Below the pieces are notes generated by a model. It worked only from the letters and a program-made list of their open reading frames with translations, did no database searches and had not been told where the DNA came from. From positions 1 to 24,085 of IMG/VR virus record IMGVR_UViG_3300031902_000053: a stretch of DNA of 24,085 nucleotides; one strand, written 5' to 3'. Below, piece after piece: positions 837 to 24,085 of this stretch (position 1 is its first letter; each line of letters begins with the position of its first letter). Both the position numbers and the translations under genes were made by a program. The DNA is from a virus.

Positions 837-840
837 CCCC

Positions 841-2541: not shown

Positions 2542-2548
2542 GGCCCTG

Positions 2549-5791: not shown

Positions 5792-5815
5792 TCTCGTCGC
5801 CTCTCTGATCTCTCC

Positions 5816-5883
5816 GCGCGCGTTGCGCGCCTGACAACTCGTTTCGCGCCTCCGCACTGCTCGGCATACGCCGCGCGGTGCGG
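5816..5883 (+). promoter_or_regulatory. Two hairpins in the leader of the major capsid gene
   Basis: The 121-base gap between the cement gene and the capsid gene holds two structures. GCGCGC (5816-5821) pairs with GCGCGC (5825-5830). A larger hairpin spans 5852-5883: CCGCAC with GTGCGG, extended inward by TGC/GCG (one T-G) and CGGC/GCCG around ATAC, with one mismatch. No U tract follows, so a 5' stabiliser, an RNA-processing signal or an attenuator is more likely than a simple terminator. The capsid ribosome-binding site, AAAAAGG at 5897-5903, lies just beyond. Confidence 0.45.
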
Positions 5884-5912
5884 CGGCGCTTTGTCCAAAA
5901 AGGTTCCGCGCA

Positions 5913-6995: not shown

Positions 6996-7008
6996 GCGCC
7001 TGACGTCG

Positions 7009-7039
7009 AACCCCGCACCGCGCAAGCGGTCGCGGGGTT
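7009..7039 (+). terminator. Terminator-like hairpin after the major capsid gene
   Basis: AACCCCGC (7009-7016) pairs with GCGGGGTT (7032-7039). Inside, ACCGC pairs with GCGGT around a GCAA tetraloop (7022-7025), with one bulged C at 7031. Only three T follow. It lies 14 bases after the capsid stop and just before the next start. It probably acts as a partial terminator or 3' stabiliser separating head from tail expression. Confidence 0.6.
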
Positions 7040-7049
7040 TGCGGCGTTG

Positions 7050-7532
7050 ATGGGATACCTCACGCTCGCCTCGTTCCGACTTCGCACGCTGATGCCGAAG
7101 CTCGATGTCGATGCCGTCGAGGCAGACGTCTCGGGATTCACGCAATCGCGACTCGATACCAATTCCGCTAAGATCGATACCCGACTCCGCAAGCGCTACG
7201 CGGTCCCGTTCTCGGCGCTCGTTCCGTATCCCGAAGCCGTTCTAGAGTGGCTGACGAAGATCACGACGTACGAGCTCTACCTGAAGCGCGGCGTGGATCC
7301 GTCGGATCAGACGCTCGCGCTCGTGCGCACCGACAAGGAGCAGGCGGAGGCGGAGCTGAAGGAGGCTTCGGACTCCGTCACCGGGCTCTTCGATCTTCCT
7401 GTCCGCGACTCCGCGGACGGCTCCGCGGTCGTGAAGGGCGGCCCGATCTTCTACACGGAGACGAGCCCGTACACGGGGTTCGACATCCAGCGCCAGACCG
7501 GCAGCGACGAGGATCGCAATGGCCGACGGTGA
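7050..7532 (+). CDS. Head-tail connector, gp36-like (DUF1320)
   Basis: The product is 160 residues. Key features are MGYLTLASFRLRTLMP at the start, then FTQSRLDTNSAKIDTRLRKRYAVPF, the hallmark of DUF1320/Mu gp36 proteins, in which a long helix binds the head-tail interface. EAVLEWLTKITTYELYLKRG follows, and an extended Gly/Pro-rich C-terminus contains GGPIFYTETSPYTGFD. It follows the major capsid gene exactly as gp36 does in Mu-like phages. I chose ATG 7050 over the in-frame TTG 7047. The 3' end overlaps the next gene by 14 bases. Confidence 0.8.
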   Translation: MGYLTLASFRLRTLMPKLDVDAVEADVSGFTQSRLDTNSAKIDTRLRKRYAVPFSALVPYPEAVLEWLTKITTYELYLKRGVDPSDQTLALVRTDKEQAEAELKEASDSVTGLFDLPVRDSADGSAVVKGGPIFYTETSPYTGFDIQRQTGSDEDRNGRR

Positions 7533-7893
7533 CGAGACGCTGCGTGCGATCGTGAAGCGGCTCCGCGCGTTCGGTCTCGCCGCGTCGATGGCGACCGAAG
7601 CGGTTCCCCTCGTGGAGGCGGCCGTGAAGGCGACAGCGGCCGCGGGGACGGATCCCTACGGCGAGCCCTGGCGACCGAAGAAAGACGGCGGGCGGGCCCT
7701 TCCAGACGCCGCGGACGCCGTCTCCGTCGAGTCGAACGGCAAGATCATCCGGATCACGGTGCGCGGCGGAGAGGCCGCGCAGAACCGCTACGGCGTCCGT
7801 CGGCTCCTGCCGAGACGGAAGCTCCCGAAGGCAATCCTCGAAGCGCTTCGCGAGGGCGCTCGGCGCGCGTGGGTGAAGGCGATGAGCACATGA
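7519..7893 (+). CDS. Tail completion / virion morphogenesis-like protein
   Basis: The product is 124 residues, basic and mostly helical. It begins with a helical stretch and then shows GTDPYGEPWRPKKDGGRALPDA. The GxxPxGxxW motif followed by K/R and a strand (KIIRITVRG) is typical of the phage virion morphogenesis / HK97 gp10-like tail-completion proteins that cap the tail and join it to the head. ATG 7519 has GAGGA six bases before it, inside the previous gene. The stop is shared with the next start as ATGA. Context between gp36-like and sheath genes supports a neck or tail-terminator role. Confidence 0.6.
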   Translation: MADGDETLRAIVKRLRAFGLAASMATEAVPLVEAAVKATAAAGTDPYGEPWRPKKDGGRALPDAADAVSVESNGKIIRITVRGGEAAQNRYGVRRLLPRRKLPKAILEALREGARRAWVKAMST

Positions 7894-8516
7894 TCCCGCC
7901 TCCGAACGTCATCATCCAATCCGGGCTGCTCGCCGCCGCGGACGCCGTCGCCGCCTACTTCGTCGCGAACGGCGTCACCGCCGTTACGGACGTCGGATGG
8001 CGGAAGCGCACGCAGGGCGTCAACCAGGGCGCCGGCGGTGCGAACCGCGTGCTCTTCAGCCCGAGCGACGACAGCGGCGACGGCGGAGAGCTCGCGCCCC
8101 CGCGCTTCCCCGGCGCGCGTCAGCTGCGCGTTGCGGCGGATCAGCCGCCCCTTGCCTCGATTCGATCACTCGCGAACTGGAATCGCAAGGTGACGCTCTC
8201 GATCTGGGCAGTCGATCCGGATCCTACGAAGCGTGCCGTGGAGCGCGCGCAGATCGCCGCGACCGAAACGCTTCTCGAGTGGACCGTGCGCGCGGTGCAC
8301 TCCGCGCCTGGCTGCTTCGCCGCGGTGAAGTTCGGCAAGGCGAAGTGGACAGTTCCCGCTGAGCGCTCGTTCGGACTCGAGATCCTTGTCGGACTCGAGT
8401 TCTCGCAGCCGATCTTCGATGTCCCGAATCAGACCTTCTTTCCGAATTCCGCGGCCGTTGCGCGCGGGCCCCACACGATCCCGACGCCGACGACTACCGG
8501 CAAGGGCGACACCTGA
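7890..8516 (+). CDS. Mu gp37-position tail/neck protein
   Basis: The product is 208 residues. ATG 7890 overlaps the previous stop (ATGA). A longer frame opens at GTG 7869 but adds only seven residues of no evident value. The N-terminal helix is followed by GWRKRTQGVNQGAGGANRVLFSP, a Gly-rich loop, and then the strand-rich RKVTLSIWAVDPDP and FGLEILVGLEFSQPIFDVP. It sits where Mu-like phages encode gp37 (DUF1834) and a tail terminator, immediately before the sheath. I do not see a decisive motif, so tail terminator or connector is inferred from position. Confidence 0.5.
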   Translation: MIPPPNVIIQSGLLAAADAVAAYFVANGVTAVTDVGWRKRTQGVNQGAGGANRVLFSPSDDSGDGGELAPPRFPGARQLRVAADQPPLASIRSLANWNRKVTLSIWAVDPDPTKRAVERAQIAATETLLEWTVRAVHSAPGCFAAVKFGKAKWTVPAERSFGLEILVGLEFSQPIFDVPNQTFFPNSAAVARGPHTIPTPTTTGKGDT

Positions 8517-8528
8517 GGATTCCTCCGC

Positions 8529-9992
8529 ATGATTCCGCAAACCAAAGTTACGAAGCTGAACGGAAACACCGGCACGATCAAGCCGGGCGCGAAGGGCATC
8601 CACGCGATCATCGCGCCGAGCTCCGCGGGCACCGCGAACCAGCCTCAGGGCGTCTCCAAGGTCAGCATCGCGCAGGCGAGCTTCGGCGGCGGCATGCTCG
8701 TCGAGGCGGCCGCGTACATCATGGCCGCGTCGGGCAATCCCGTCGTGATGATCAAGGGGACGGCGACGACGGCGGGCACGAACAGCGCCGTCGTGAAGGT
8801 CGGTACCGGCACCTCCGTGATCACGGCGACCGGCGTGCCGATCGACGACTACAACGTGCTCGTCACGTGGGTGAACGGCGGAACGCAGGGCATCGCCGGG
8901 ATCACCTACAAGATCAGCCTCGACGGTGGAAACACCTACGGCCCGGTCACCGCGCTCGGAGTCGCCGTCACGCTCGCGCTGAACGTCGGCACGATCACGA
9001 CGGGCGTTTCGCTGGCTCTCGCGGCGGGAACCATCGTCACCGGCGACACCGCGGCGGTCGTCTGCACCGGCCCGCGCATGACCACGAGCGACATCACGAC
9101 GGCGCTCGAAGCGCTGCGGACGTCCTCGCTCCCTTGGGAGATGGTCGTCGTTCTCGGGCACGACGCGATCGGCACCACGGTGACCGCGCTCGACGCGTGG
9201 CTCGCTCTCCGCGAGGCTGAGGGCCGCTTCCGCGGCTTCATCTGCAACAACGCGTTCCGCGGCGTCGCGACCGAAGCGGCCTACCTCACGGCCCAGCAGA
9301 CCACATGGGCCGGCGTCGCGTCGATTCGCGGGCTCGTCGGCGCAGACGGCGGAGATCTCGTCTCCGTCCTGCCTGGCAACAGCCTGACGCAGAAGCGCCC
9401 GACGGCGCTCGCCGTCGCCGGCCGCGTCGCGAAGGTCAACTACGGCGTGGATCCCGCGTACGTCTCCGACGGCCCCGTGCCGGGCTTCGCGCTCGCCGAC
9501 GCGCGCGGCAACCCGAACAACCACGACGAGAACCTGTACCCGGGCCTCGACGCGATCAAGCTCTGCACGCTGCGGACGTTCGATCGCCGGGCGGGCACGT
9601 TCATCACGGGCGCGAACGTCATCTCGAGCGACGGCAGCGACTTCGTGTGGGTGCAGCACATCCGCACGATGAACCGCGGTTGCGAGATCGCGTTCGACAC
9701 GCTCACCTCGCAGCTCTCGCGCGGCGTCGGGAAGAACCCGAAGACGGGGCCGAGCGGAGAGGTCTACATCGCGGAGGAGGACGCGCAGCGCATCGAGGCG
9801 CTCGTGAACCAGAACCTGACCGAGCTCCGCGGGCAGGTCTCCGATCTGCTCTTCACGCTCTCGCGCACCGACAACATCGGCGCAAACGGCCCTGTCGTTC
9901 TGAACGGCGAGCTGAAGGTTTCCTCGCTCGCGTACGTCAAGGAATTCGACGTCAACGCGAGCTTCGTCCGCACGATCACCGTGCAGCAGTGA
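8529..9992 (+). CDS. Contractile tail sheath protein (DUF2586-type)
   Basis: The product is 487 residues and is the contracting outer tube of a myovirus tail. The C-terminal half has sheath hallmarks: DSDG-like loops, NNHDENLYPGLDAIKLCTLRTFD, DFVWVQHIRTMNRGCEIAFDTL, YIAEEDAQRIEALVNQNLTELRGQV, and a final strand LAYVKEFDVNASFVRTITVQ that would form the interlocking C-arm. Residues about 85-180 form an Ala/Gly/Thr-rich insertion with YKISLDGGNTYGP, a common bulge in Mu-like sheaths. ATG 8529 is preceded by TGAGGA. The next gene is the tail tube, as in other contractile systems. Confidence 0.85.
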   Translation: MIPQTKVTKLNGNTGTIKPGAKGIHAIIAPSSAGTANQPQGVSKVSIAQASFGGGMLVEAAAYIMAASGNPVVMIKGTATTAGTNSAVVKVGTGTSVITATGVPIDDYNVLVTWVNGGTQGIAGITYKISLDGGNTYGPVTALGVAVTLALNVGTITTGVSLALAAGTIVTGDTAAVVCTGPRMTTSDITTALEALRTSSLPWEMVVVLGHDAIGTTVTALDAWLALREAEGRFRGFICNNAFRGVATEAAYLTAQQTTWAGVASIRGLVGADGGDLVSVLPGNSLTQKRPTALAVAGRVAKVNYGVDPAYVSDGPVPGFALADARGNPNNHDENLYPGLDAIKLCTLRTFDRRAGTFITGANVISSDGSDFVWVQHIRTMNRGCEIAFDTLTSQLSRGVGKNPKTGPSGEVYIAEEDAQRIEALVNQNLTELRGQVSDLLFTLSRTDNIGANGPVVLNGELKVSSLAYVKEFDVNASFVRTITVQQ

Positions 9993-10003
9993 AGGGCTAA
10001 GCC

Positions 10004-10501
10004 ATGACCGATCTCATCGAAACTCGGCTGAACGATACCCCGTTCAGCGCGACGTCTTGCTCGTGGAACATCGCTCTTGCGCCGTTCGTCGGCATCACCG
10101 CTCTCTCGTATTCCGAGAAGCGCGAACGCAAGTTCGTGCACGCGTCTCGGAAGGACGGCACCCCGCTCGGCATCACGAACGGAAAGTACTCCGTCGACGG
10201 CCTCTCGATGACGATGCTTCGATCGTCCTTCCAGCGGCTGATCGAGATCCTCACCGTGCAGGGGTTCGGCTCCTACGGTGACGCGCGATTCCCGATCATC
10301 GCGACCTACAGCGAGCCGCTCGCGCTGCTCGCCGGCGTCCCGCCGATCACGGTCGCCGTCGCCGGCGCGCGCATCACCGGCGTCAAGGACTCGTATGCCG
10401 AGGGCATCGACGAGCTCGTCACCGAAGTGGAGATGACTGCCCTCGCGATCACGCGCAACGGCCTGCGTCTCTGGTCTGTCATCAACGGGATTGGAGTCTG
10501 A
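10004..10501 (+). CDS. Tail tube protein
   Basis: The product is 165 residues and probably forms the inner tail tube under the sheath. The composition is that of a compact beta barrel: SCSWNIALAPFVGITALSYSEKRE, then GKYSVDGLSMTMLRSSFQRLIEIL, YGDARFPIIATYSEP, and a C-terminal GIDELVTEVEMTALAITRNGLRLW, which matches the inner-strand segment of gpM/FII-like tubes. It lies between the sheath and the tail assembly chaperone, the standard order. AAGGG precedes ATG 10004. It ends two bases before the chaperone start. Confidence 0.75.
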   Translation: MTDLIETRLNDTPFSATSCSWNIALAPFVGITALSYSEKRERKFVHASRKDGTPLGITNGKYSVDGLSMTMLRSSFQRLIEILTVQGFGSYGDARFPIIATYSEPLALLAGVPPITVAVAGARITGVKDSYAEGIDELVTEVEMTALAITRNGLRLWSVINGIGV

Positions 10502-10503
10502 GC

Positions 10504-10956
10504 ATGAGCGATCAGGATGTGACCGACGTTCCCGAGGCGTTCGCGCCGAAGACTCCCGCGCAGAAGCTCGCCGAGCTGCAGAAGCGCAAGGCCGAGCGCG
10601 ACGCGGCGAACGAAGCCGCGGCGGTCTCTGCCAGGATCGAGCGTCTCGAGCTCGAGGAGAAGTTCGCCGAGAAGCTCGGCGGCGACGTCGACAAGGCGTT
10701 CTGCATCGTCGACGTCTCGGATCTCGGCGAGGGCTTCGTGGTGCTGAAGCTCGGCAGCGATGTCGAGTTCAGCGCGTTCAAGGCCTCGAAGATGAACGTC
10801 GTAGACATCGACACGTTCGTCGCGCCGAACATCGTGCACCCGTCGCTCGACGCGTACCGCACGCTTGCGAAGCGCCGCGGTGCCTTTCCCGATCGGTGCG
10901 TCATGGCTCTCTCGGGGCTCTACGGCTACCGGGCGAAGGAAGACGCGGGAAAATAG
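10504..10956 (+). CDS. Tail assembly chaperone, short form (G-like)
   Basis: The product is 150 residues. It has an acidic N-terminus, then a Lys/Glu/Arg coiled-coil segment (about 18-60, KLAELQKRKAERDAANEAA) and a C-terminal globular part with FCIVDVSDLGEGFVVLKLG and ALSGLYGYRAKEDAGK. It lies between the tube and tape-measure genes, where tail assembly chaperones are always found. In Mu this is gp41, and in lambda gpG. It keeps the tape measure soluble and helps the tube polymerise around it. The stop TAG 10954 follows directly on a slippery heptamer, so part of translation should continue in the -1 frame (see the fusion). Confidence 0.8.
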   Translation: MSDQDVTDVPEAFAPKTPAQKLAELQKRKAERDAANEAAAVSARIERLELEEKFAEKLGGDVDKAFCIVDVSDLGEGFVVLKLGSDVEFSAFKASKMNVVDIDTFVAPNIVHPSLDAYRTLAKRRGAFPDRCVMALSGLYGYRAKEDAGK

Positions 10957-11177
10957 CCGCCCTCGTCACGCGGGGCCGCAAGGACGTGACGACGTTCGCG
11001 GACTGCCTCACGGCGTTCGCGCATCGAGCGGAAGACGCGCGGAACGCTGCAAGCGTCAACGTCGCGTTCGGTGCGCTGGCCGATCGGAGCGCAGCGCTAG
11101 ACGAACAACGGAGATCAGCGAGGGCAGGAGCAATCCTCCTCGCGGAAGCTTTCATGAGGCTGGGCAATGGCGGCTGA
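10504..11177 (+). CDS. Tail assembly chaperone, -1 frameshift fusion (GT-like)
   Basis: A -1 shift on GGGAAAA (10947-10953) turns the 150-residue chaperone into a 224-residue fusion that adds 74 residues, IAALVTRGRKDVTTFADCLT and onward. Codons are joined 10504-10953 and then 10953-11177, so A10953 is read twice. The added part is helical with an aromatic/Ala pattern and ends in EAFMRLGNGG. This region has no start and no ribosome-binding site of its own, yet it has clean coding character, so it is otherwise unexplained. The stop overlaps the tape-measure start (11167) by 11 bases. The family precedent is lambda G/GT and many other contractile and siphophage tails. The short:long ratio would set chaperone stoichiometry. 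Confidence 0.75.
10947..10953 (+). promoter_or_regulatory. -1 ribosomal frameshift slippery heptamer GGGAAAA
   Basis: The codon phase is G GGA AAA, followed immediately by TAG. This matches the X XXY YYZ rule exactly: both tRNAs can slip back one base onto GGG and AAA. The stop codon directly after would favour pausing and slippage. Confidence 0.85.
10963..10992 (+). promoter_or_regulatory. Frameshift-stimulating stem-loop (possible pseudoknot)
   Basis: TCGTCACG (10963-10970) pairs perfectly with CGTGACGA (10985-10992) around a 14-base loop. The spacer from the slippery heptamer is 9 bases, in the usual range. CCGC in the loop (10976-10979) could also pair with GCGG (10998-11001) to make an H-type pseudoknot. 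Confidence 0.65.
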
Positions 11178-13203
11178 GAACGAAGCGGCAACGTTTGCCA
11201 TCAACCTCGAAGGTGACGTAGCGACGAAGTCTGCGCAGATCGCGGACAGCATCGAAGGACTCCGCCAGAAGATCTCTGGCGGGGTCAACGCTATCAAGGA
11301 GATGAACACCAATCTCCGCGCGCTGAAGGGCAACTCCGACGAGGTGAAAGCCGCGAAGGAGAAGCTGAAGGACAGCATCGCCGCCGAGAAAGACGCTCTC
11401 TCCAGCGCGAAGTCGGCAATGGCCGATCAGGGCAAAGAGATGAAGAACCTCGTCAAGGGCTCGAAGGCCCTCGCGGACGAGAAGAAGAAGCTCGCGGAGA
11501 AGAACAAGAAGCTCCGCGAGGAGCTGAAGGACGACGCCGAGAAGAAGGCGGCCGATCGCACGAAGGCGCTCGGCGCCGCGATCAGCACCGCAGGCGGCCC
11601 CGTCGCGGCGCTCCGCGACAAGCTGGCTGGCCTGAAGGACATCATGGGAGAGGGCGGCGCAGGCGGCGCCTCGAGCCTCCTGACGCTCGGGATCGCCGGG
11701 CTCGCGGCGGCGGCGGCCGCGCTCGTCGTCGGTGTCATCGCCGCGGGCTACGCGCTCTCGAAGTTCATCCTGCGAGGTGCCGATGCGGCGCGCTCGCTCG
11801 GCCTCATGCGCGAGGCTGCGATGAACGGCAATGCCCAGTGGGGGAAGAATTTCGGCGAGCAGGTGGACGCGCTCGCGCTGAAGGTCCCGACGTCGAAGGA
11901 CAAGATCGATGAGCTCGGCAAGAGCCTCGCGAAGAGCCGCATTGGCGGGCAGATCTGGGTCGACACGCTGAACGCGGTCACGCAGGCGTCCGCGGCGCTC
12001 GGCGAGGACTCCGGCAACGCGCTCAAGGGTTTCATCGAGCGCGGGAAGCAGTTCAACCGCTTCCAGCTGAACCCGCTCGAGATGGTCGGCACCGGGATCG
12101 ACTTCAAGGACGTGGCGGAAGCCCTGTCCAAGAACATGAAGATCGGCGTCAAGGACGCGACCGCGGCGCTCTTCGAGGGCCGCGTGAAGCTCGGCGACGG
12201 CGCGAAGGCGCTGCGCGATGCGGTCGAGAAGAAGGTCGGCGGGATCAACCTCCGGCAGATGCTGTCCCTGGACAACATCGTGAAGAAGCTCGGCGAGACG
12301 TTCGACTCCCTCACGAAGGGCGTGGACATCGAGCCGATCCTGAAGGGCTTCAAGGAGCTCGCGGACCTCTTCTCCCTGAACAACGTCACCGGCCAGGCGC
12401 TGAAGACGATCGTGGAGACGTTCGGCAAGGAGATGGGCGTGTCGATCACGTCGACGACGCCGATCGCTAAGCGCTTCATCCAGGGCCTGGTCATCGGCGC
12501 GCTGCAGATCACGATCGCGTATCTGCAGGTCCGCAACTCGCTCCGCGACACGTTCGCCGACTCGAAGATCCTGAAGGGGGTCGACGGGCTCGGCATCGCG
12601 CTCACGGTCGGCAAGTACGCGGCGATCGGCCTGGCTGTCGCGGTCGTCTCTATCGCGGCCGTGATGGCTGTCGGGCTCGTCCCGATCCTCGCGTTCGGCG
12701 CGGCGATGGTGTGGATCAGCAAGAAGTCGAGCGAGCTCGGCAAGAGCATCCGCGAGACGTTCATCGACATCGATTGGAAGGCAACCGGCGCCGCGATCCT
12801 CGACGGGCTCCTGCTCGGGATCACGAGCGGCTCGAGCGCGCTCCTGAAGGGGATCAAGGGGCTCGCGAAGAGCATCAAGGGCGCGTTCACCGGCGAGCTC
12901 GAGATCCACTCTCCGTCGAAGGTGTTCGAGCGCTACGGCGAGAACATCGACGCGGGCCTGGAGAAGGGCGTCGAGAACGGCGCGCCGGGCGCGCAGAGCG
13001 CCGTGAGCTCGATGGTGTCCGTCCCCTCGGGCGGCGGCGGTGGCGGTGGACGCGCGGCACCGATCATCAACATCACGATCAACGCGAGCGGCGGGAACGC
13101 GAAGGAGATCGCGGAAGCGGTCTCCAGCTCGTCGGTCATCGAACAAATCGTCAAGGCGATCATCGACGCCTCGCAGGGCGGCGGGGTCGGTGTGCCTGCG
13201 TAA
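11167..13203 (+). CDS. Tail tape measure protein
   Basis: The product is 678 residues and sets tail length and is ejected with the DNA. Residues about 15-140 form a long Lys/Glu-rich coiled coil (KLAEKNKKLREELKDDAEKK). A hydrophobic segment of roughly 35 residues near 180-205 (Ala/Gly/Val-rich) and a second cluster near 480-515 are probable membrane-insertion helices. The C-terminal part has ELEIHSPSKVFERYGENI (around residue 578-595), the SPSKVF motif common near the end of tape measures, followed by a Gly linker and IINITINASG. GAGG precedes ATG 11167, inside the chaperone fusion. At this length the tail would be short to medium. Confidence 0.85.
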   Translation: MAAENEAATFAINLEGDVATKSAQIADSIEGLRQKISGGVNAIKEMNTNLRALKGNSDEVKAAKEKLKDSIAAEKDALSSAKSAMADQGKEMKNLVKGSKALADEKKKLAEKNKKLREELKDDAEKKAADRTKALGAAISTAGGPVAALRDKLAGLKDIMGEGGAGGASSLLTLGIAGLAAAAAALVVGVIAAGYALSKFILRGADAARSLGLMREAAMNGNAQWGKNFGEQVDALALKVPTSKDKIDELGKSLAKSRIGGQIWVDTLNAVTQASAALGEDSGNALKGFIERGKQFNRFQLNPLEMVGTGIDFKDVAEALSKNMKIGVKDATAALFEGRVKLGDGAKALRDAVEKKVGGINLRQMLSLDNIVKKLGETFDSLTKGVDIEPILKGFKELADLFSLNNVTGQALKTIVETFGKEMGVSITSTTPIAKRFIQGLVIGALQITIAYLQVRNSLRDTFADSKILKGVDGLGIALTVGKYAAIGLAVAVVSIAAVMAVGLVPILAFGAAMVWISKKSSELGKSIRETFIDIDWKATGAAILDGLLLGITSGSSALLKGIKGLAKSIKGAFTGELEIHSPSKVFERYGENIDAGLEKGVENGAPGAQSAVSSMVSVPSGGGGGGGRAAPIINITINASGGNAKEIAEAVSSSSVIEQIVKAIIDASQGGGVGVPA

Positions 13204-13763
13204 TGCCCAATCCCACCGATCTGCTGGACGGCCCCCCGAACCAGGATTTCATCGTCCTGGCGGGGGCGCCGTCGCCGGGCGCCGCGGTCGTGAAGGGCGC
13301 GGGCTCTCCGCGGAAGTGGGACGTGCGCGACGGCTACGGGCTCTCCGGCGCCGTCGTCGTCTTCATGGGGCAGGGCCTCTCGGCGTTCGACGTCGACATC
13401 TTCTGTTGGGAGCCGGAGCACTTCCTTGCCTGGAAGCTGTTCGCGACGCTCACGCTCACGAATCCCCCGATCGGCGCGCGGCCTACTTCGATGGCCATTC
13501 AGCACCCTGCGCTGAACGACGCGCCGCTTTCGATCAAGCAAGTAGTCGTCACGAACGTGACGCAGTGGGAGCAGGATCCCGAGGGCACCGGCCTCTGGTG
13601 CCGCACGATCTCGTTCCTCGAGTACCGCAAGCCGCGGCCCGCCCTGGTGAAGCCCTTCGAGGGGCCGCCCGGCAGCCCGGTCGCTGTCGCTCCTCCGGCG
13701 AGCCCCGACGAGGTGCTGATCGCCTCGCTCACCGCGACCGTCGCCAAGCTCGCAGGGCCGTGA
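13203..13763 (+). CDS. Tail/baseplate protein after the tape measure
   Basis: The product is 186 residues. ATG 13203 overlaps the tape-measure stop (TAATG). The strand-rich core contains FIVLAGAPSPG, KWDVRDGYGLSGAVVVFMGQGL, FDVDIFCWEPEHF, then MAIQHPALNDAPLSIKQVVV and GLWCRTISFLEYRKPRP. The HPxL motif followed by two strands and an EYR end recalls small baseplate or tube-initiator proteins that sit between tape measure and spike genes. The C-terminal 35 residues are a Pro/Ala linker and helix. I cannot name the family with confidence; a tail tip adaptor is the best inference. Confidence 0.55.
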   Translation: MPNPTDLLDGPPNQDFIVLAGAPSPGAAVVKGAGSPRKWDVRDGYGLSGAVVVFMGQGLSAFDVDIFCWEPEHFLAWKLFATLTLTNPPIGARPTSMAIQHPALNDAPLSIKQVVVTNVTQWEQDPEGTGLWCRTISFLEYRKPRPALVKPFEGPPGSPVAVAPPASPDEVLIASLTATVAKLAGP

Positions 13764-13766
13764 TCC

Positions 13767-15065
13767 ATGCTCCCCATCCTCCTGAATCAGCTGCAGGTCG
13801 TTTCGGCGATCGTCAACATGCCGGCGAACGGTGTGTGGACTGCCGATCTAGACGTCGATCTTGACGTGTCGATGATCGTGCCCTCTGGGAAGTGCGTCCT
13901 GACCATCGGGACGACTCCCATGATCGGCACGATCGATCCTCGCTCGACGGGGAGGTTCGGCGCGAAGGCGCACGTGCAGGTCTCGGGCGGCGGCGGGGGA
14001 TGGGACAAGCCCGTGCTCGGGCTGCACCTGCACAACGATGTTGGCGTGCTCTCGTCTGCGATTCTCGCCGTCACCGCGGCGGAGGTCGGGGAGGCTGTCG
14101 TCGACACGATCCCGAAGCGGCTCGGCGTCGACTACGTGCGGACCGCGGGCCCCGCGTCGCGCGTGCTCTCCGGGTTTGACTGGCACGTGGACACCTCGGG
14201 CGTGACCGTCACCGGCCCGCGCCTCCCGATCCCGTTCAACCCGCTGACCGTCGACATCCTGTCATGGGACGCCGAGACGCGCTGCGCGACGCTCGCGAGC
14301 GACGAGCTCGTGCTTCCCGGGACCGTGCTCGTCGACATCCGTTTCGGTACGGCGATCGTCCGCGACGTCGAGCAGACGTTCAGCGCTGAAGGCTCGAAGG
14401 TCTCGGCGTGGTGCGACACGTCCACGCTCTCTCTCCCCGTCCCCGGGGTGCAGAAGGAGACGCCCGGCAACCGCATTGCTCGAGCGATCGGGATGATGGC
14501 GCGCGAGGCGGCCGGCGTGCAGTACCTGAAGCGCTGGCACTACCGCGTGGTCCTGCAGAACCCCGCGAACAAGCGCGTCACGCTGCAGCTCGTAGACATC
14601 CTCGGCGGCGCGCCGCTCGCGCTCGCAGAGATCGACATCTGGCCCGGCGTCTGCGGATCCTCCCACGTCCTCGTGCCTGGCACTGAGGTGCTCGTGGCGT
14701 TCATCGAGGGAGATCCGGCACAGCCTATCGTTGTCGGCTTCGCGAAGCTGGCGCCGCCTCCGCTGGAAACGAAGCTCGAAGCTGTGCGCATCGCGCTCGG
14801 TTCTGTCGCCGTAGATCCCGTCGCGAAGGCGCCGGGGACGCAGGCGCAGATCGCGGCGCTCACGACGGCCGTAGGCGCGCTCGCCGCGTACGTCGCGGCG
14901 CTCACCGCGCTCGCCGCAACCCCCCCGACGTCGACGACGTTCACGCTCTTCGGCGCCGCGATGGCCGCGCCGGGCGCTGCGGTCGCGACCGCGCTCGGCG
15001 GCCTCGCCGCCGCTGTCGCTGCGCAAGTGCCGCTCGCGACATCCACGAAAACCTTCACCGACTAG
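13767..15065 (+). CDS. Baseplate hub/spike protein with OB-fold region (gpV / gp45-like)
   Basis: The product is 432 residues. The N-terminal part (1-175) is strand-rich with a PxxGxxxxxIGxxxxxG pattern like phage hub domains. The middle carries VQYLKRWHYRVVLQNPANKR followed by VTLQLVD and GTEVLVAFIEGDPAQPIVVGF (about 304-324), the OB-fold signature of gpV/VgrG-type spikes. The C-terminal 90 residues are an Ala/Thr-rich helical segment (QIAALTTAVGALAAYVAALT) that could form a trimeric coiled coil. It would sit at the centre of the baseplate below the tube. A short true spike tip with a metal-binding apex is not visible here. Confidence 0.7.
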   Translation: MLPILLNQLQVVSAIVNMPANGVWTADLDVDLDVSMIVPSGKCVLTIGTTPMIGTIDPRSTGRFGAKAHVQVSGGGGGWDKPVLGLHLHNDVGVLSSAILAVTAAEVGEAVVDTIPKRLGVDYVRTAGPASRVLSGFDWHVDTSGVTVTGPRLPIPFNPLTVDILSWDAETRCATLASDELVLPGTVLVDIRFGTAIVRDVEQTFSAEGSKVSAWCDTSTLSLPVPGVQKETPGNRIARAIGMMAREAAGVQYLKRWHYRVVLQNPANKRVTLQLVDILGGAPLALAEIDIWPGVCGSSHVLVPGTEVLVAFIEGDPAQPIVVGFAKLAPPPLETKLEAVRIALGSVAVDPVAKAPGTQAQIAALTTAVGALAAYVAALTALAATPPTSTTFTLFGAAMAAPGAAVATALGGLAAAVAAQVPLATSTKTFTD

Positions 15066-15073
15066 AGGCCCCC

Positions 15074-15436
15074 ATGGCGGACGTCGTTTGCTACGACGAT
15101 CTCGACGAGTTCGGGCGCGATCTAGACGATCCCGTCACCGAGCTCGAGCAGGACGTCGTGCACATGCTGCTCGAGTCCTACCGGACGAACGTCGACGCGC
15201 TCGAGCGAAGCATCGGGCTCGAAGACGCGCTCTCCGGCCCGACCGATCCGGGGCTGCGGCACCGGATCGAAACGAAGCTCTCCGACGATCCGCGCATCGA
15301 CGCGGCGAAGGCGGTGCTCACGGCGACCGACAACCAAACCGTGCGCGTCGATCTGTTCCTGCAGGTGAACGGCGCCGAGCTCGGCATCTCGCTCGAATAC
15401 GACGCCGCGGGAAACCTGAAGAGGATCGCCACATGA
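15074..15436 (+). CDS. Baseplate wedge protein, gp46 / gp25-like
   Basis: The product is 120 residues and is the small wedge protein that links baseplate arms to the hub. It has LDEFGRDLDDPVTELEQDVVHMLL, then RSIGLEDALSGPTDP, RIETKLSDDPRIDAAKAVL and a closing beta hairpin DLFLQVNGAELGISLEYD. This is the classic gp46/gp25 layout, where a helical start with an acidic D/E patch leads to an RIxxxLxxDPRI motif and amphipathic strands. GAGG precedes ATG 15074. The stop overlaps the next start (ATGA). Confidence 0.8.
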   Translation: MADVVCYDDLDEFGRDLDDPVTELEQDVVHMLLESYRTNVDALERSIGLEDALSGPTDPGLRHRIETKLSDDPRIDAAKAVLTATDNQTVRVDLFLQVNGAELGISLEYDAAGNLKRIAT

Positions 15437-16581
15437 TCACGGTCTCGGATCTCGTCACCCCCGTTACGGCCGATCAGGCGGAGGAGACGCTTCTCCTCAC
15501 GATCGAGGGAACGGGGCTGAAGCCGCGCGCCTGGCGCGAGGGCGGCTCGCTCCGCACGATCCTGCGCGTCTGCGCGATCATCTTCGCCGCGTTCACGAAG
15601 GCGATTGCCGATCTCGCCGCCGCAGGCTTCCTCGAGACGAGCACGGGCGGCTGGCTGACGCTGCTCGCGTACTACGTCTACGGCGTCACCCGGATCAACG
15701 CGACGTTCGCGACCGGATCCGTCACGCTGACGAACGGCGGCGGCGGGATCTACAGCGTCGCCGCGGGCGCGTTCCGCTGCACCTCGAACGTCACCGGCAA
15801 GGCGTACACGAACGTCTCAGCGTTCACGCTGAACCCCGGGGATGTGCTCCTCGTCCCCGTGACGGCGGTGGAGCTCGGCTCCGCGAGCTCGGCGACGCCG
15901 GGGACCGTGACGCTCTTCACGACGACGCCGCTCGCCGGCGTCACGTGCACGAACCTCGCCGCGATCGTCGGATCTGACGCAGAGCCCGATCTCGTGCTGC
16001 AGCAACGCTGCAAGGACAAGCTCGCGACGCTCTCCGGGCTCGGCCCGCGCGGCGCGTACTCCTACGCGGTCCGCTCCGCCGTGCGCGGCGACGGCTCGAT
16101 CGTCGACATCAACCGCCTGTCGATCTCTCCCTCGAGCTCCACGGGTGTCGTCACGATCTACTGCGCGTCCCCCGCGGGCGCGCCGCTCGCGACCGATCTC
16201 GACTTCGTCCGCGCGAGCATCGAGCTCTACGCGCGCCCCGACAGCGTGACGTGCACGGTCATCGGCGCGAACCCGCTGCCCCTGTCGAAGACGCTCACGG
16301 TCTGGGCCATCGCTCAGACAGGCGTTTCGGCGACGGATCTTTCGACGCTCGTGTCGGCCGCGCTCCTCTCGATGATCACCGCCTACCCGATCGGCGGCGT
16401 CGCGAAGACGCCCGATCCGCTCGGCTACCTCTTCGCCACGCGGATCGAGGGCGCCGTCATCGGCGCGCACCCGAGCATCTTCGCCGTGGACGGCGTCGGG
16501 GCTGACGTCCTGATGTCCGCCGGCGACGTCGCGACGCTCGCCACGACGCTGACCATCCGCATCGTCACCAAGGAGATCTGA
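15433..16581 (+). CDS. Baseplate J-like protein (gp47-like)
   Basis: The product is 382 residues and is the large wedge subunit partnering the gp46-like protein. It shows the N-terminal LVTPVTADQAEETLL, RAWREGGSLRTILRVCAIIFAA, LETSTGGWLTLLAYYVYGVTR, and then repeats of strand-rich TGSVTLTNGGGG and FTLNPGDVLLVPVTA. The J-like signature is GSDAEPDLVLQQRCKDKLATLSGLGPRGAYSYAVRSA near residue 180-215, followed by VTIYCASPAGAP. Start ATG 15433 overlaps the gp46 stop. Confidence 0.85.
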   Translation: MITVSDLVTPVTADQAEETLLLTIEGTGLKPRAWREGGSLRTILRVCAIIFAAFTKAIADLAAAGFLETSTGGWLTLLAYYVYGVTRINATFATGSVTLTNGGGGIYSVAAGAFRCTSNVTGKAYTNVSAFTLNPGDVLLVPVTAVELGSASSATPGTVTLFTTTPLAGVTCTNLAAIVGSDAEPDLVLQQRCKDKLATLSGLGPRGAYSYAVRSAVRGDGSIVDINRLSISPSSSTGVVTIYCASPAGAPLATDLDFVRASIELYARPDSVTCTVIGANPLPLSKTLTVWAIAQTGVSATDLSTLVSAALLSMITAYPIGGVAKTPDPLGYLFATRIEGAVIGAHPSIFAVDGVGADVLMSAGDVATLATTLTIRIVTKEI

Positions 16582-16583
16582 TC

Positions 16584-17387
16584 ATGGCGGACTCTGGATC
16601 TGTCCGCCTGCGGGACTACCTCGCCAAGCTCCTGCCGTGGTGGCTGTCCGATCGCCGGCTCTCGTCCGGGAAGTGGACCGGCTACCGGTTCCTCTGGGCC
16701 ATCGCGGCATACCTGGATGTGGCCATCGAGAGCGCCCTGCAGGCGCTCAAAGCGCCTTGGCCGGGGCTGGGCACTCCTACTGCCCTGCCGCTCATCGGGC
16801 GCTCTCGGGGCATCCTGAGAGGGCAGGCCGACACCGACGCGGGATTCGCGGCGAAGCTCGTCCGCTGGCTCGACAAGTGGCGCCGGGCGGGATCTCAGTT
16901 CCAGCTCGCCACCGAGCTGCACGAGTACCTCGGCAACTCCCCGCGCGTGCGGGTGATCAACCGCGCCGGGCGGTGGGTGACCGTCAACGCGGACGGCTCG
17001 ACGATCACGCAAGACGCTACGTGGAATTGGGATTCCGTCTCGAATCCCGAGCGCGCCGGCTACTGGTCCGAGCTCTTCATCGTGATCTATCCCACGCAGT
17101 GGGCGAACCAAGGCAACTTCGGCGCGGCCGGCACGCTCGGCACGGCGTTTGGCGTCGGGCATCTCGCGAACCGTCAGGAATGGGACGCCGTTCACGCGAT
17201 CATCGCGCAGTGGAAGAGCGCGCACACGAAGGTGCGCGCGATCATCTGGACGAGCGACGCCGCGCTCTTCGATCCAACCGCTCCTCTGACGTGCCCTGAC
17301 GGGACGTGGGGGGAGTGGAGCAGCCAAACCAGCGCTCGCGTCCCGAGCGCGCGCGCAATCTCAACCTGCAGATATTGGGAACTCTGA
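16584..17387 (+). CDS. Tail protein I / gp48-like baseplate periphery protein
   Basis: The product is 267 residues. AAGGAGAT (16570-16577) precedes ATG 16584. It begins with RLRDYLAKLLPWWLSD and has LWAIAAYLDVAIESALQALKAPWPG, typical of tail protein I family members that start with a helical segment after a PWWL-like motif. DAGFAKLVRWLDKWRRAGSQFQLATELHEYLG and a Trp-rich middle (NWDSVSNPERAGYWSELFIVIYPTQW) with WKSAHTKVRAIIW follow. It lies after the J-like gene and before the fibre genes, matching the connector between the baseplate edge and tail fibres. Confidence 0.7.
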   Translation: MADSGSVRLRDYLAKLLPWWLSDRRLSSGKWTGYRFLWAIAAYLDVAIESALQALKAPWPGLGTPTALPLIGRSRGILRGQADTDAGFAAKLVRWLDKWRRAGSQFQLATELHEYLGNSPRVRVINRAGRWVTVNADGSTITQDATWNWDSVSNPERAGYWSELFIVIYPTQWANQGNFGAAGTLGTAFGVGHLANRQEWDAVHAIIAQWKSAHTKVRAIIWTSDAALFDPTAPLTCPDGTWGEWSSQTSARVPSARAISTCRYWEL

Positions 17388-20259: not shown

Positions 20260-20480
20260 TGCCGCCGATCGTGATGACGACTCTGGCAATCGGGACGTTC
20301 CTCGTCGAGCACGGGGACATGATCGAAGCGATCCTCGCCGCGTTCGGCGCGGGCACCTCGAAGGCCGAGGTGATGGCGGGGATCCGCGCGAGCATGATCA
20401 CGGCGTCGGACGCCGCGGTCTTCGCCGAGCTCGGGCCCCGCGAGACGGAGCCCGTGACGCTCCGCGGGGGCGGCACGTGA
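20259..20480 (+). CDS. Small unknown protein before the muramidase
   Basis: The product is 73 residues from ATG 20259, which overlaps the previous stop (TGATG). The N-terminal hydrophobic stretch TTLAIGTFLVEHGDMIEAILAAFGAG could be a short membrane or amphipathic helix, and the tail is acidic and Arg/Gly-rich. I do not recognise it. Its stop overlaps the muramidase start by 4 bases (GTGA), so the four lysis-region genes are coupled in translation. A second holin or regulator is possible but unproven. Confidence 0.5.
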   Translation: MPPIVMTTLAIGTFLVEHGDMIEAILAAFGAGTSKAEVMAGIRASMITASDAAVFAELGPRETEPVTLRGGGT

Positions 20481-21172
20481 TCAAGGGCCTCGACGCTTCG
20501 AGCGTGCAAGGGCTCCTCGACGTCGAGGCGCTGCACGCCGCGGGGTGCCGGTTCCTCCTGCACAAGTGCCAGCAGGGCAACGACGGCAAGGATCCGTTCT
20601 TCGAGCGGAACGTCTCGGCCGCGCGCGCGAAGGGCTGGCGCGTCGGCGCCTACCACTTCCTGTACCCGCTCCCGCACCTCGATCCGGAGAAGCAGGCCGA
20701 GGGCTTCTACGCAGCTTCGCAGCTTGGTGCGTATAACGGAGAGCTCCCGCCGGCGCTCGATCTCGAATGGCCGGATCCTGACGCAGGATTCGCGAAGTGG
20801 GGCTGCACCCCGAAGCAGGTGAGCGACTTCGCGCGCCGCTGCGCGGAGAGGATGACGCAGCTCTTCGGGCGCAAGCCCGTGATCTACATCTACCCCTACT
20901 TCGCGCAGAAGCTCGCCGCCGGCGCGGACGTCTCGTGGCTGGCAGAGTACCCGCTCTGGATCGCCTCGTACGAGAAGGCGCCGCGCATCCCGAAGCCTTG
21001 GACGTCGTGGGCCCTCTGGCAGTACGACGGCAACGGCGGCGAGAAGCTGCCCGGCGGAGGGGATGCTGACTTCAACTGGTTCAACGGGGACGAAGAGGCG
21101 CTCGCGGCCTTCTGCGCCTTCCCGCCCGAGCTCTTCGAGCACACGGATCCCGTCTACGTCGAGCCCGCCTAG
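20477..21172 (+). CDS. Glycoside hydrolase family 25 lysozyme (endolysin)
   Basis: The product is 231 residues and cleaves the beta-1,4 bond between N-acetylmuramic acid and N-acetylglucosamine in peptidoglycan. The GH25 pattern is clear: N-terminal GLDASSVQG with Asp6, RFLLHKCQQGNDGKDPFFERN, AYHFLYP, the catalytic DLEWPDPD with Asp95 and Glu97, KPVIYIYPYF, PLWIASYEKAP and SWALWQYDGNG with DADFNWFNG near the end. There is no signal peptide, so release should depend on the holin-like protein. GTG 20477 overlaps the previous stop. A strong terminator lies 10 bases after the stop. Confidence 0.9.
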   Translation: MIKGLDASSVQGLLDVEALHAAGCRFLLHKCQQGNDGKDPFFERNVSAARAKGWRVGAYHFLYPLPHLDPEKQAEGFYAASQLGAYNGELPPALDLEWPDPDAGFAKWGCTPKQVSDFARRCAERMTQLFGRKPVIYIYPYFAQKLAAGADVSWLAEYPLWIASYEKAPRIPKPWTSWALWQYDGNGGEKLPGGGDADFNWFNGDEEALAAFCAFPPELFEHTDPVYVEPA

Positions 21173-21220: not shown

Positions 21221-21676
21221 TCAGAGCTGCGCCTGTTCGCGCGCCGTCCACGCCATCGGCCACACGACATGCATGAGGCCCGCGCTCTCGGGATCGTCCT
21301 TGAACCCGAGCTCGCAGTGCGCGAGCTCGTGCGCGGCGAGCCCGGCGAGGCTGCCCGGCGTCGCGTTCGGATCCTCGGGATCCAGGTAGACGGTCGCGTC
21401 CCTGCAGAGGCCCGTGGTCGTCTCGGCGCCGAGCGTCCCGCGCTCGCGCCGGATGGTGTGCGGGAGCGCTTCGGTGCTCGTCACCGCGTAGGACCACTCG
21501 AACGTCGCAGGCGCGCGCCCCGCGTGAGCGGCGAGCCAGCCTTCGCCGTCCTCGATCGCGGCGCGCTCGGACGCGGAGAAGCGCGCGTCACCGTGCCAGT
21601 CCGCCTCAGGGGCGGCGCAGCCCGCCGTGCACGAGGGCGCGAGCGCGTAGAACAGGACGAGCAGGCCGAAGCGCAT
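21221..21676 (-). CDS. Small exported HExxH protein (metallopeptidase-like)
   Basis: The product is 151 residues from ATG 21676. The reading frame stays open further upstream, but that stretch crosses the att region and has no coding look. Residues 1-20 are a signal peptide (RFGLLVLFYALAPSCTAGC). Cys20 is a possible lipidation site, although T at -3 is unusual. HELAH at 116-120 is followed by CELGFKDDP and GLMHVVWPM (133-141), the order seen in zinc metallopeptidases with a Met-turn. The third zinc ligand is unclear, because the metzincin HxxGxxH spacing is not exact. As a small reverse-strand gene next to the att site it looks like a moron or lysogeny-phase gene. Peptidase activity is a guess. 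Confidence 0.55.
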   Translation of the reverse strand: MRFGLLVLFYALAPSCTAGCAAPEADWHGDARFSASERAAIEDGEGWLAAHAGRAPATFEWSYAVTSTEALPHTIRRERGTLGAETTTGLCRDATVYLDPEDPNATPGSLAGLAAHELAHCELGFKDDPESAGLMHVVWPMAWTAREQAQL

Positions 21677-21744: not shown

Positions 21745-21765
21745 GCGGGCACCCCGCGGGCACCC
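21745..21765 (+). repeat. Left arm: two tandem copies of GCGGGCACCC
   Basis: GCGGGCACCC occurs at 21745-21754 and again at 21756-21765, spaced 11 bases start to start. The same element recurs on the other side of the tRNA-Phe fragment. This is the layout of arm-type integrase sites. Confidence 0.7.
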
Positions 21766-21835
21766 GACCGGCATTCTGGGAGGCGACTGGGGCGCCTGGC
21801 GCGAACCTTGCCGCTGCTGTTTCAGCGGGATTTGT

Positions 21836-21883
21836 GGGTGCCCGGGGACGGAATCGAACCGCCGACACGGGGATTTTCAATCC
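21836..21883 (-). other. 3' half of a tRNA-Phe gene, likely attP core
   Basis: Read on the minus strand this is the 3' part of tRNA-Phe. The anticodon loop and stem are GGATTGAAAATCC (plus-strand dyad GGATT-TTC-AATCC at 21871-21883). They are followed by the variable region, a T arm GGCGG-TTCGATT-CCGTC with one G-U, acceptor 3' strand CCCGGGC, and A then CCCA. The match ends in the anticodon stem, and no 5' half or D arm follows. A fragment starting in the anticodon loop is the usual identity block of a tyrosine-integrase attP or attachment remnant. Direct repeats on both sides favour attP. No integrase gene lies in the window. Confidence 0.75.
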
Positions 21884-21930
21884 TTCCAGATCATGGGCTT
21901 TCATCGGTAGATCCTGGGGTTCGGGGTTCG

Positions 21931-21951
21931 GCGGGCACCCGGTGGGCACCC
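21931..21951 (+). repeat. Right arm: GCGGGCACCC and GTGGGCACCC in tandem
   Basis: GCGGGCACCC at 21931-21940 and GTGGGCACCC at 21942-21951 repeat the left arm with the same 11-base pitch and orientation. Together with the left pair and an inverted GGGTGCCCG at 21836-21844 (at the tRNA acceptor end) this gives five copies of CGGGCACCC-like sequence around the core. Confidence 0.7.
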
Positions 21952-21955: not shown

Positions 21956-22195
21956 TCATTCGTCGGAGGTCGCCAGGCCCTTGGCCGCGATGCGCGCAGC
22001 GTGAGCCGAGCCCTCCACGTAGGTCGCCATGCCAGCGATCTCGGCCAGCGCCTCCCGCGCGCTCGACAGCCGAGAGCGCAGGTTCTCGATCTCTTCGCAG
22101 GCCGAGGCGTAGTTGTGCGGGGTCTGGCAATCGTCGCAGACGGTCGCGGTCTTCTCGTTCACGTGTGCGCACACATCACACTGCCACTCTGTCAC
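21956..22195 (-). CDS. Small RanBP2-type zinc-finger protein
   Basis: The product is 79 residues from GTG 22195. GAGGG lies just upstream, and the start overlaps the previous gene's stop (GTGA). Residues 4-23 match the RanBP2-type finger: W-x-C-x2-C-x3-N-x6-C-x2-C, here WQCDVCAHVN then CDDC. Four Cys should hold one zinc, in a fold that binds single-stranded RNA or ubiquitin in known families. Residues about 33-72 form a helical, coiled-coil-like stretch (EEIENLRSRLSSAREALAEI) that may dimerise. It is the last gene of the reverse operon and ends 5 bases from the right att repeats. The target is unknown. Confidence 0.65.
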   Translation of the reverse strand: MTEWQCDVCAHVNEKTATVCDDCQTPHNYASACEEIENLRSRLSSAREALAEIAGMATYVEGSAHAARIAAKGLATSDE

Positions 22196-22437
22196 GACGC
22201 CCTCGGGTCGGTCGGCTTCTCGAGGAGCGCGCGCATGCTCGTGATCGCTTCGTCGATGCCCGCGCCCAAGCCAGGCGTCTGCCACGCGGCCTCGATTGCC
22301 TGCGAGACGCCTAGCTCCCAGACGCGTGAGAGCTCCTCGGCAAGCCTTTGCTCCGTCGTCGGGTTCGCGTACCCGGTCGTGGTCTTGAGCCACTCGCGGG
22401 CCATCGTGAGGAAGTCGAGGAAGTCGGGGCGGGTCAT
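22192..22437 (-). CDS. Small helical unknown protein
   Basis: The product is 81 residues from ATG 22437, which overlaps the previous gene's stop as ATGA. Its own stop overlaps the zinc-finger start as GTGA. The sequence is mainly helical with aromatic residues: DFLDFLTMAREWLKTTTGYANPT, then RLAEELSRVWELGVSQAIEAAW and a C-terminal helix. I see no known motif. The 4-base couplings on both sides indicate one transcription unit and probably a joint task or assembly with the neighbours. Confidence 0.6.
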   Translation of the reverse strand: MTRPDFLDFLTMAREWLKTTTGYANPTTEQRLAEELSRVWELGVSQAIEAAWQTPGLGAGIDEAITSMRALLEKPTDPRAS

Positions 22438-22880
22438 TTCAGCATCTCCCATTCGGCCGTGCCGAGCATCGTCGGATCGTACTTGCAGCGGAAGCGGGCG
22501 CGAACGCCCTGCGTGTCGACGTAGGAATCCAGGAAGTACCTGCACCCGTCCGCCGAGCTCAGGCCTGTCGTGTCGCTGTCGGGAGGCAGGGGAGGGAACG
22601 CAGCGTTCGGGAGACCTGCGCGCACCTTCGCGTTGCAGTCCTCGAGCATGGCCCTCTTCGTCTTCGGGAAGACGAGCTCTCCGGGCTTCAGCCCGCAAGC
22701 CTTCCGCGTCTTCGCTTTCCAGGGCTCGATCTTCGCCGCGTACTGCGCATCGGCGTCCGCCTTGTCGATCTCGGCCTGGACGACGAGCGCGATCTGTTGC
22801 GCCTCCGCGTCGGCCTTCTCGGCCTTCGTCTCTGCGTGGCATGCCGTGAGAACGAGCATCAACACCGGGGCGGTTCGCAT
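22434..22880 (-). CDS. Phage-encoded lipoprotein, Cys-rich
   Basis: The product is 148 residues. I chose ATG 22880 because the first 13 residues form a signal peptide ending in the ideal lipobox LTAC (Cys14). An open frame reaches 23057 but would bury this signal. His at +2 does not give the Asp inner-membrane retention signal, so the outer membrane is the likely location. Residues 20-55 form an acidic/basic helical stalk (EKADAEAQQIALVVQAEIDK). Four later Cys (62, 82, 113, 132) could form two disulphides around GCRYFLDSYVDTQG. Lipoproteins expressed beside an att site are often superinfection-exclusion proteins, but that role is an inference. It overlaps its upstream partner by 22 bases. Confidence 0.65.
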   Translation of the reverse strand: MRTAPVLMLVLTACHAETKAEKADAEAQQIALVVQAEIDKADADAQYAAKIEPWKAKTRKACGLKPGELVFPKTKRAMLEDCNAKVRAGLPNAAFPPLPPDSDTTGLSSADGCRYFLDSYVDTQGVRARFRCKYDPTMLGTAEWEMLK

Positions 22881-23647
22881 CTCGGGAGCGTATCCGCCCG
22901 CGCTTCGGCTGGGGAAAGCGCACCCGAGTTTGCTCGGCGATTGTTGGCGTAGCAGCGGCGGCACTGGCCCTTGACTTGGGCGGGTTCCGCGCAACCTGGA
23001 TGCGGCGCGGAACCTGAGCACGTGGCCGGCTTGATCAGCTTCATTTTCTTCGCCCACGTTTCGCTTCTCTTACGAGAGCTCTCCGCCCTCATCGCGGGAC
23101 CCCTCGCACGTGCAGCCTTGACGGCTTGCGCCACACGCTCTTCGGGGGTTCGTCTCGCAGTTGCCAGGAGCAGAGCTTGAGTGGCTTTTGCGACGGTGCA
23201 CTTGCGACACTGAACAGAGCGCCCGGCCCTAGCTGCCGTACGGGCTGCTTTCTTCGATATTGCAGCGCCGCAAGCGCAACGGGTTTGGCAGCCTTCCGTG
23301 CAAACTCTCGGCACGATGGCGGACTTTACAGGCACGCTCTTCCCGCAGTTCTGGCACACCACCTCCTTCGGCCGCACGCCCTCCTGCACGACGTGCTCGA
23401 GGCCCTGGATCTTCGCCAGGCCGCGGAGCACATCCCGACCGACGCCAGGGCGCACGGTGCCGTCCTTGGCGACGATCTGGATCTTGCGGTTCAGCGTCTT
23501 CTCGCTGGCTCCGCGGAACACGGCGGCGTCGAGCGCAGCGAGTTCGAGGGCCTCCTTCGCGGTCAGTCCCTGAGGCACGAACACGTCAGGGACGTCGCGC
23601 GCCTCATCTCCCGCCCCGCCCTCCGGTCTTCTCTCTGCGCTCTTCAT
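22859..23647 (-). CDS. Multi-zinc-ribbon protein
   Basis: The product is 262 residues from ATG 23647, with AAGGAGG five bases upstream. A longer frame extends to 23947, but it lacks a ribosome-binding site and runs through another small gene. The N-terminal helical part (about 28-90) may be a DNA-binding or dimer domain (KEALELAALDAAVF, then TLNRKIQIVAKDGTVRPGVG). It is followed by CQNCG (98-101), C116/C120/C124/C126, C147-x2-C150, and a separate C210-x8-C219-x9-C229-x2-C232-Y ribbon like those in HNH or Vsr-associated zinc domains. The C-terminal tail again has two Cys. HNH catalytic residues are not evident. Nucleic-acid binding is likely; the exact role is unknown. Confidence 0.6.
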   Translation of the reverse strand: MKSAERRPEGGAGDEARDVPDVFVPQGLTAKEALELAALDAAVFRGASEKTLNRKIQIVAKDGTVRPGVGRDVLRGLAKIQGLEHVVQEGVRPKEVVCQNCGKSVPVKSAIVPRVCTEGCQTRCACGAAISKKAARTAARAGRSVQCRKCTVAKATQALLLATARRTPEERVAQAVKAARARGPAMRAESSRKRSETWAKKMKLIKPATCSGSAPHPGCAEPAQVKGQCRRCYANNRRANSGALSPAEARADTLPRCEPPRC

Positions 23648-23658
23648 GTCGTCCTCCT

Positions 23659-23799
23659 TCACTTCGTCTTCAGCTCGGCCAGCCGCTCGTCTTTGGTCAA
23701 GGCGAGCTCGAAGAGCAGTAGATGTGCGCGCCACTGCGTCAGCCCCCAGGACAGCGCCTCGTCGTGCGCTTCCTCTACTCTTCTCTCCTCGCTCGTCAT
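23659..23799 (-). CDS. 46-residue acidic peptide
   Basis: ATG 23799 has AGGAG six bases upstream. The frame gives MTSEERRVEEAHDEALSWGL and onward to TGA at 23659-23661, 11 bases before the next start. The peptide is helical with a mid Trp pair and a Leu-rich run (WRAHLLLFELALTKDERLAEL), so an amphipathic helix is likely. I do not recognise it. Its good ribosome-binding site and position in the operon support expression. Confidence 0.6.
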   Translation of the reverse strand: MTSEERRVEEAHDEALSWGLTQWRAHLLLFELALTKDERLAELKTK

Positions 23800-23827
23800 G
23801 TTCGTCTCCTGTTGGCTGGCTCGTCAG

Positions 23828-23868
23828 CGCGGGTAGCCAATCCCGCGGACCCCCGAGGAGGGGTTTCG
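23828..23868. other. Gap with two small inverted repeats
   Basis: CGCGGG (23828-23833) pairs with CCCGCG (23842-23847), and ACCCC (23849-23853) pairs with GGGGT (23860-23864). They lie between two minus-strand genes. On the minus strand they could be a weak terminator or leader structure. There is no T tract, so the role is uncertain. Confidence 0.3.
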
Positions 23869-23879
23869 CCTTGAAGTTT

Positions 23880-24085
23880 TCAGGCGCGGGTGCGTCCGCT
23901 GCGCGCGACATTGAAGGGCAACGCGATAAGGACCGCCTCGAACCCATCCCACCCGGCTTCCTCTATGCGGCGCTCCGCAGCCTCTTGCGTCTCGAACCGC
24001 ATCGGCTCGCCGTTGTCGAGATAGACGACGTGGCCCGGGTCACACCGGATCCTCCACGGGCCTGTTGCCGTGCTGCGCTCGACCT
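23880..24085 (-). CDS. Small unknown protein (5' truncated)
   Basis: An open frame enters from the right edge and ends with TGA at 23880-23882, giving 67 residues, VERSTATGPWRIRCDPGHVV and onward. It contains YLDNGEPMRFETQEAAERRIEEAGW, the pattern of small phage proteins with a strand, then an F-x-T-x-E-x-A helix. No name can be given. It reads in the same direction as the reverse operon and is separated from the next gene by 80 bases that contain two short hairpins. Confidence 0.55.
   Translation of the reverse strand, partial: VERSTATGPWRIRCDPGHVVYLDNGEPMRFETQEAAERRIEEAGWDGFEAVLIALPFNVARSGRTRA

Follow-up and report, generated by a model that had tools for sequence, protein, structure and literature searches.

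Why should a phage genome carry the 3' part of a transfer RNA (tRNA) gene set between two pairs of short repeats? The question is raised by a locus at positions 21,745 to 21,951 of the IMG/VR record IMGVR_UViG_3300031902_000053, a record classed as linear and analysed here in its complete length of 24,085 bases (the window). We conclude that the locus is very probably the attachment site (attP) of a temperate, myophage-like phage of Polyangia, whose cognate lambda-type tyrosine integrase is encoded beyond the window and which integrates at tRNA-Phe.

A tRNA-Phe fragment between paired repeats

The putative common core is a 48-base block on the minus strand (21836-21883), GGATTGAAAATCCCCGTGTCGGCGGTTCGATTCCGTCCCCGGGCACCC, which corresponds to the 3' part of tRNA-Phe(GAA), from base 3 of the anticodon stem to the 3' end. 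Forty-seven of these 48 bases (21837-21883) match intact tRNA-Phe genes without a gap or a mismatch, and identity ends upstream of anticodon stem base 3. Intact tRNA-Phe genes with the identical 47 bases are found in a Polyangiaceae metagenome-assembled genome (MAG) and in several Pseudomonas and Halopseudomonas genomes. An earlier note on this DNA had described a 48-base tRNA-Phe 3' end beginning in the anticodon stem and had looked to host genomes for an intact tRNA-Phe sharing that end, and both points are borne out. With a core identical to the host tRNA 3' part over 47 nucleotides (nt), integration would rebuild the tRNA: when the 5' half of a host gene was joined by script to the phage block, ARAGORN called the hybrid as tRNA-Phe(GAA), and the predicted attL, one of the two prophage ends, scored as tRNA-Phe, whereas attP and attR, the other end, did not. 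In the window itself ARAGORN found no intact tRNA gene, and an Rfam scan here gave no match for the partial tRNA. When the viral collection was searched for exact copies of the tRNA block or of the arm pair, no second contig was returned.

Four putative arm-type sites, all read on the plus strand, flank the core on both sides. On the tRNA 3' side, copies of GCGGGCACCC lie at 21745-21754 and 21756-21765; on the tRNA 5' side, a third copy of GCGGGCACCC lies at 21931-21940 and is followed at 21942-21951 by GTGGGCACCC, which differs from it by one mismatch. The pitch within each pair is 11 bases. The tandem pairs and their pitch were thus correctly described in the earlier note, except that the fourth copy is imperfect; what it described as an inverted copy bordering the core belongs to the tRNA, whose 3' end it forms, and is no separate arm. 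The two arm-pair blocks, each of 23 base pairs (bp), are 91% alike and spaced 186 bp apart. The motif GGGCACCC occurs in the window at the four arm positions only, and the inverse, GGGTGCCC, is present once, at 21836, the 3' end of the tRNA block. Not one of 300 Markov-simulated windows with the same dinucleotide make-up contained two tandem pairs of one 8-mer at a distance of 100-260 bp.

We propose that a lambda-type tyrosine integrase, encoded outside the window, would bind the four arm sites through its N-terminal domain, and that its core-binding domain would contact the anticodon stem-loop dyad GGATT-GAA-AATCC (21871-21883, minus strand), where the sequence suggests core-type integrase sites and the region of strand exchange. 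The attP would recombine with the identical stretch of the host tRNA-Phe, and the strands would be exchanged within the anticodon loop or close beside it, a probable crossover position given the 5' limit of identity and the literature on attachment sites in the bacterial chromosome (attB) that lie in anticodon loops (PMC3706429, PMC10865867). The host tRNA 5' half would then join the phage 3' copy, and a working tRNA-Phe would be restored at one prophage end (with the phage on the 3' side of the tRNA), while the opposite end (with the phage on the 5' side) would retain the truncated 3' piece; each end would receive one arm pair. Integrase binding, the crossover position and the activity of the site are what we infer in this scheme.

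The same plan in related phages and apparent prophages

Three IMG/VR relatives, recognized by their portal proteins, have a tyrosine integrase with the 3' fragment of a tRNA next to it. The fragments are likely to be Cys-like (G397), Gly GCC (G391) and Leu CAG (G383), isotypes that were judged by eye from the anticodon loop. In G397 and G391, tandem pairs of a short motif stand on both sides of the fragment at an 11- or 12-base pitch, with a motif that differs from phage to phage; the orientation of the repeats across the two sides is inverted in G397 and the same in G391 and the window. In G383, CCCACCC repeats can be seen by eye to the left and right of the fragment, but the site did not pass the pair test. 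Overall, two-sided paired repeats were present at five of six attachment sites, against 57 of 7,139 other positions (0.8%) in the same sequences.

The tRNA-Phe target itself recurs in two Polyangia genomes, G548 and G562, which carry what look like the two ends of prophages integrated in that gene. In G548, contig C34 holds a relative of the window's endolysin, a TGGTACC repeat pair and a tRNA-Phe fragment truncated at the same breakpoint as that of the window; contig C274 holds an intact tRNA-Phe, a GGTGGTACC repeat pair and an integrase whose domain match begins 128 bp past the tRNA. G562 repeats this arrangement, with TGYTACA repeats on contigs C41 and C294 and the integrase beside the intact copy. 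Measured from the anticodon centre, the arms lie at -76/+111 in G548, -85/+112 in G562 and -75/+111 in the window. These ends share with the window the tRNA-Phe target, the anticodon-stem breakpoint, near-equal arm distances and an 11/12-bp pitch. They differ from it in their arm motifs (GGTACC and TGYTACA, against GGGTGCCC in the window) and in an integrase that directly adjoins the intact tRNA; in G548, moreover, the endolysin is on the other side relative to the tRNA. Because the G548 endolysin is 29% identical to that of the window, we do not count the two genomes as close relatives of the window phage; they are examples of the same target. Together with the relatives that use other tRNAs, they support the reading of the locus as the core and arms of a tyrosine-integrase site, as had been proposed from the window alone.

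It could be argued that the repeats have nothing to do with integration, being for instance terminators, operators or a replication origin, and that the tRNA piece was captured by chance; GGGYRCCC is partly self-complementary and, as far as sequence goes, could bind other regulators. The paired layout nevertheless recurs at the tRNA pieces of relatives with different motifs, and G548 and G562 split one pair to each end, so that we find this explanation scarcely credible.

We also consider it highly improbable that the locus belongs to a host contig, as one end of a prophage (attL or attR), or that it joins two tandem prophages. The form of the window, a linear metagenomic fragment, is compatible with an integrated source. 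However, the late genes are on the tRNA 3' side, an attL would need an intact tRNA where ARAGORN finds none, and the window has matching arm pairs on both sides, whereas G548 and G562 have one pair of their common motif at each end. The junction of tandem prophages would have the attP sequence as well. Since the truncated piece has late genes on its 3' side and arm pairs on both sides, only an attP, or a tandem junction of the same sequence, fits. The suggestion that the unintegrated or circular form is represented here is accordingly upheld, with the tandem junction as its equivalent, by the truncated 5' end of the tRNA and the phage genes on its 3' side.

The earlier note had also remarked that the arm repeat resembles the acceptor end of the tRNA, and had called this unusual. 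The resemblance is real in the window, where arms and tRNA 3' end agree at 8-9 of 9 bases; among random 11-mers, 8/9 was reached in about 2% of trials and 9/9 in about 0.1%. It is partial in G548 (7-8 of 9) and absent from the other four attachment sites (4-6 of 9 in G562, G397, G391 and G383). We abandoned the idea that the arms must copy the tRNA end: G562 has the same tRNA with unlike arms, and the target therefore does not require the likeness. Alternatively, the tRNA's own 3' end (inverted GGGTGCCCG) might act as a further arm-type site, in which case attB would carry an arm-like site and arm and tRNA sequences would be matched. We think this very unlikely, and the relatives, mostly without any such likeness, speak against it.

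Several other tRNA-Phe 3' parts were seen. In G527 (contig C1), a truncated and an intact 3' part, at about 5614075 and 5720725, share one orientation and are separated by 106 kb. They may bound a large island integrated at tRNA-Phe; paired arms like those of the window are absent. Another truncated part lies at about 3645-4093 of contig C65 in G572, where an integrase domain match precedes it by about 230 bp. In G070, G520 and G148, tRNA-Phe 3' parts occur at contig ends in several copies per genome (three loci, L141 to L143, in G070; L148 and L149 in G520; L150 and L151 in G148). These are assembly breaks at the repeated tRNA end and possibly further attachment sites.

Prophages in four genomes (G181, G201, G535 and G564) have a transfer-messenger RNA (tmRNA) gene in the region and therefore have no bearing on tRNA-Phe. 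In G181, G201 and G564, three genomes with portal relatives, the tmRNA gene is about 80-230 bp from an integrase, and tmRNA may be the integration target for part of this phage group.

The integrase, the host and points against an active site

Some observations weigh against an attP in current use by a phage of Polyangia. The integrase family PF00589 was detected in no frame of the window: on the tRNA 5' side the 2.1 kb up to the contig end contain no integrase, and neither does the stretch between the core and the endolysin on the tRNA 3' side. In the relatives, unlike the window, the integrase domain match is about 120-370 bp from the core. The two ends in G548, like those in G562, are on separate contigs of draft genomes and were paired by their common motif and common breakpoint. 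Finally, the tRNA-Phe block followed by the next phage bases (CCCACA), with up to 2 mismatches allowed, was found in none of 379 genomes of the phylum. No attL or attR junction of the window phage itself was found; the junctions seen in G548 and G562 are those of other elements.

Either the integrase of the window phage must sit farther off than in its relatives, perhaps along the run of minus-strand genes, or the site may be a relic. On the latter explanation the phage line once integrated at tRNA-Phe, has since lost its integrase and no longer uses the site, as the lack of an integrase on either flank, out to 2.1 kb on the tRNA 5' side and as far as the endolysin on the other, would suggest, given relatives that keep the gene adjacent. 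A relic would, however, be expected to drift, whereas 47 nt of the core agree fully with living tRNA genes and all four arms are intact at the spacing seen in G548. Moreover, over one third of the genome may be missing from the window, to judge from longer relatives of 37-46 kb. We therefore regard a relic as unlikely, and favour an attP served by an integrase beyond the window.

As to the host, 20 of 290 sampled genomes from the class to which the Polyangiaceae MAG belongs contained a portal relative, at identities of up to 62%, while named phages gave only distant portal matches, at 31% or less. This makes the Polyangia the likely group of hosts; the tRNA block, taken by itself, would suit Pseudomonas too. 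In a sample of 280 genomes of the class, 54 had a tRNA-Phe 3' part that differed from a 44-base pattern by no more than 3 mismatches, and the match was exact only in the Polyangiaceae MAG. The site thereby links an uncultured phage lineage, distant from named phages, to Polyangia hosts, and as a candidate attP it could be used in integration vectors for bacteria with few genetic tools. It also widens the set of related attachment sites that share a geometry and differ in arm motif, which helps the study of arm recognition by integrases.

Known systems and the gene setting

The closest parallels come from mycobacteriophages. In Cluster J phages such as Omega and BAKA, the core is 44 bp long, starts in the anticodon loop of a tRNA-Leu gene, ends at the 3' end of that gene and is flanked left and right by pairs of direct 10-bp arm repeats (PMC3706429). 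The window shares with them a tRNA-gene core that extends to the 3' end and flanking pairs of 10-bp direct arm-type repeats; the tRNA and the arm sequence are different, and the Cluster J integrase is about 100 bp from the core (PMC3706429), whereas that of the window phage is not in the window. More generally, mycobacteriophages with tyrosine integrases typically have 30-45 bp cores shared with a tRNA 3' half, and pairs of arm-type sites flank the core (PMC10865867). Boilgate, likewise lambda-type with arm-type sites on the core flanks, uses tRNA-Lys and has five core mismatches (PMC10865867), against none over 47 nt in the window. In the tRNA-dependent lysogeny of Fionnbharth, the core is about 10 bp and the tRNA is not rebuilt (PMC10865867); a core of 47-48 nt and a window without a tRNA gene, and hence without a phage-borne tRNA of the same isotype, do not correspond to that type. 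Since the Cluster J and other mycobacteriophage precedents show a core with paired arms (PMC3706429, PMC10865867), the attP site is ordinary in kind, a known tRNA-gene design in a little-studied group of phages of Polyangia soil bacteria.

The genes of the window include, in this order, terminase, portal, head protease, major head protein, tail sheath, tape measure, baseplate and GH25 endolysin. The last of these, which closes the late block (20477-21172, plus strand), marks the tRNA 3' side of the core as phage DNA. Between it and the attP sits a small lipoprotein-like open reading frame (ORF) with a HELAH zincin-type motif (21221-21676, minus strand); the zincin-like protein, used as a query, gave a single weak match, with no tRNA fragment at that locus. 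The tRNA 5' flank (21956-24085) is a run of small minus-strand ORFs, among them zinc-ribbon proteins and a possible Rz-like spanin. Right-flank proteins, used as queries for a contig extending beyond 24085, gave no useful match. Because the longer portal relatives reach 37-46 kb, the window is probably a fragment of a larger phage genome. One contig (L027/L072) is 99.99% identical to the window but spans only its positions 54-16782. It stops 53 bases inside the window start, just ahead of the terminase, and this end may be a shared packaging end or an assembly break.
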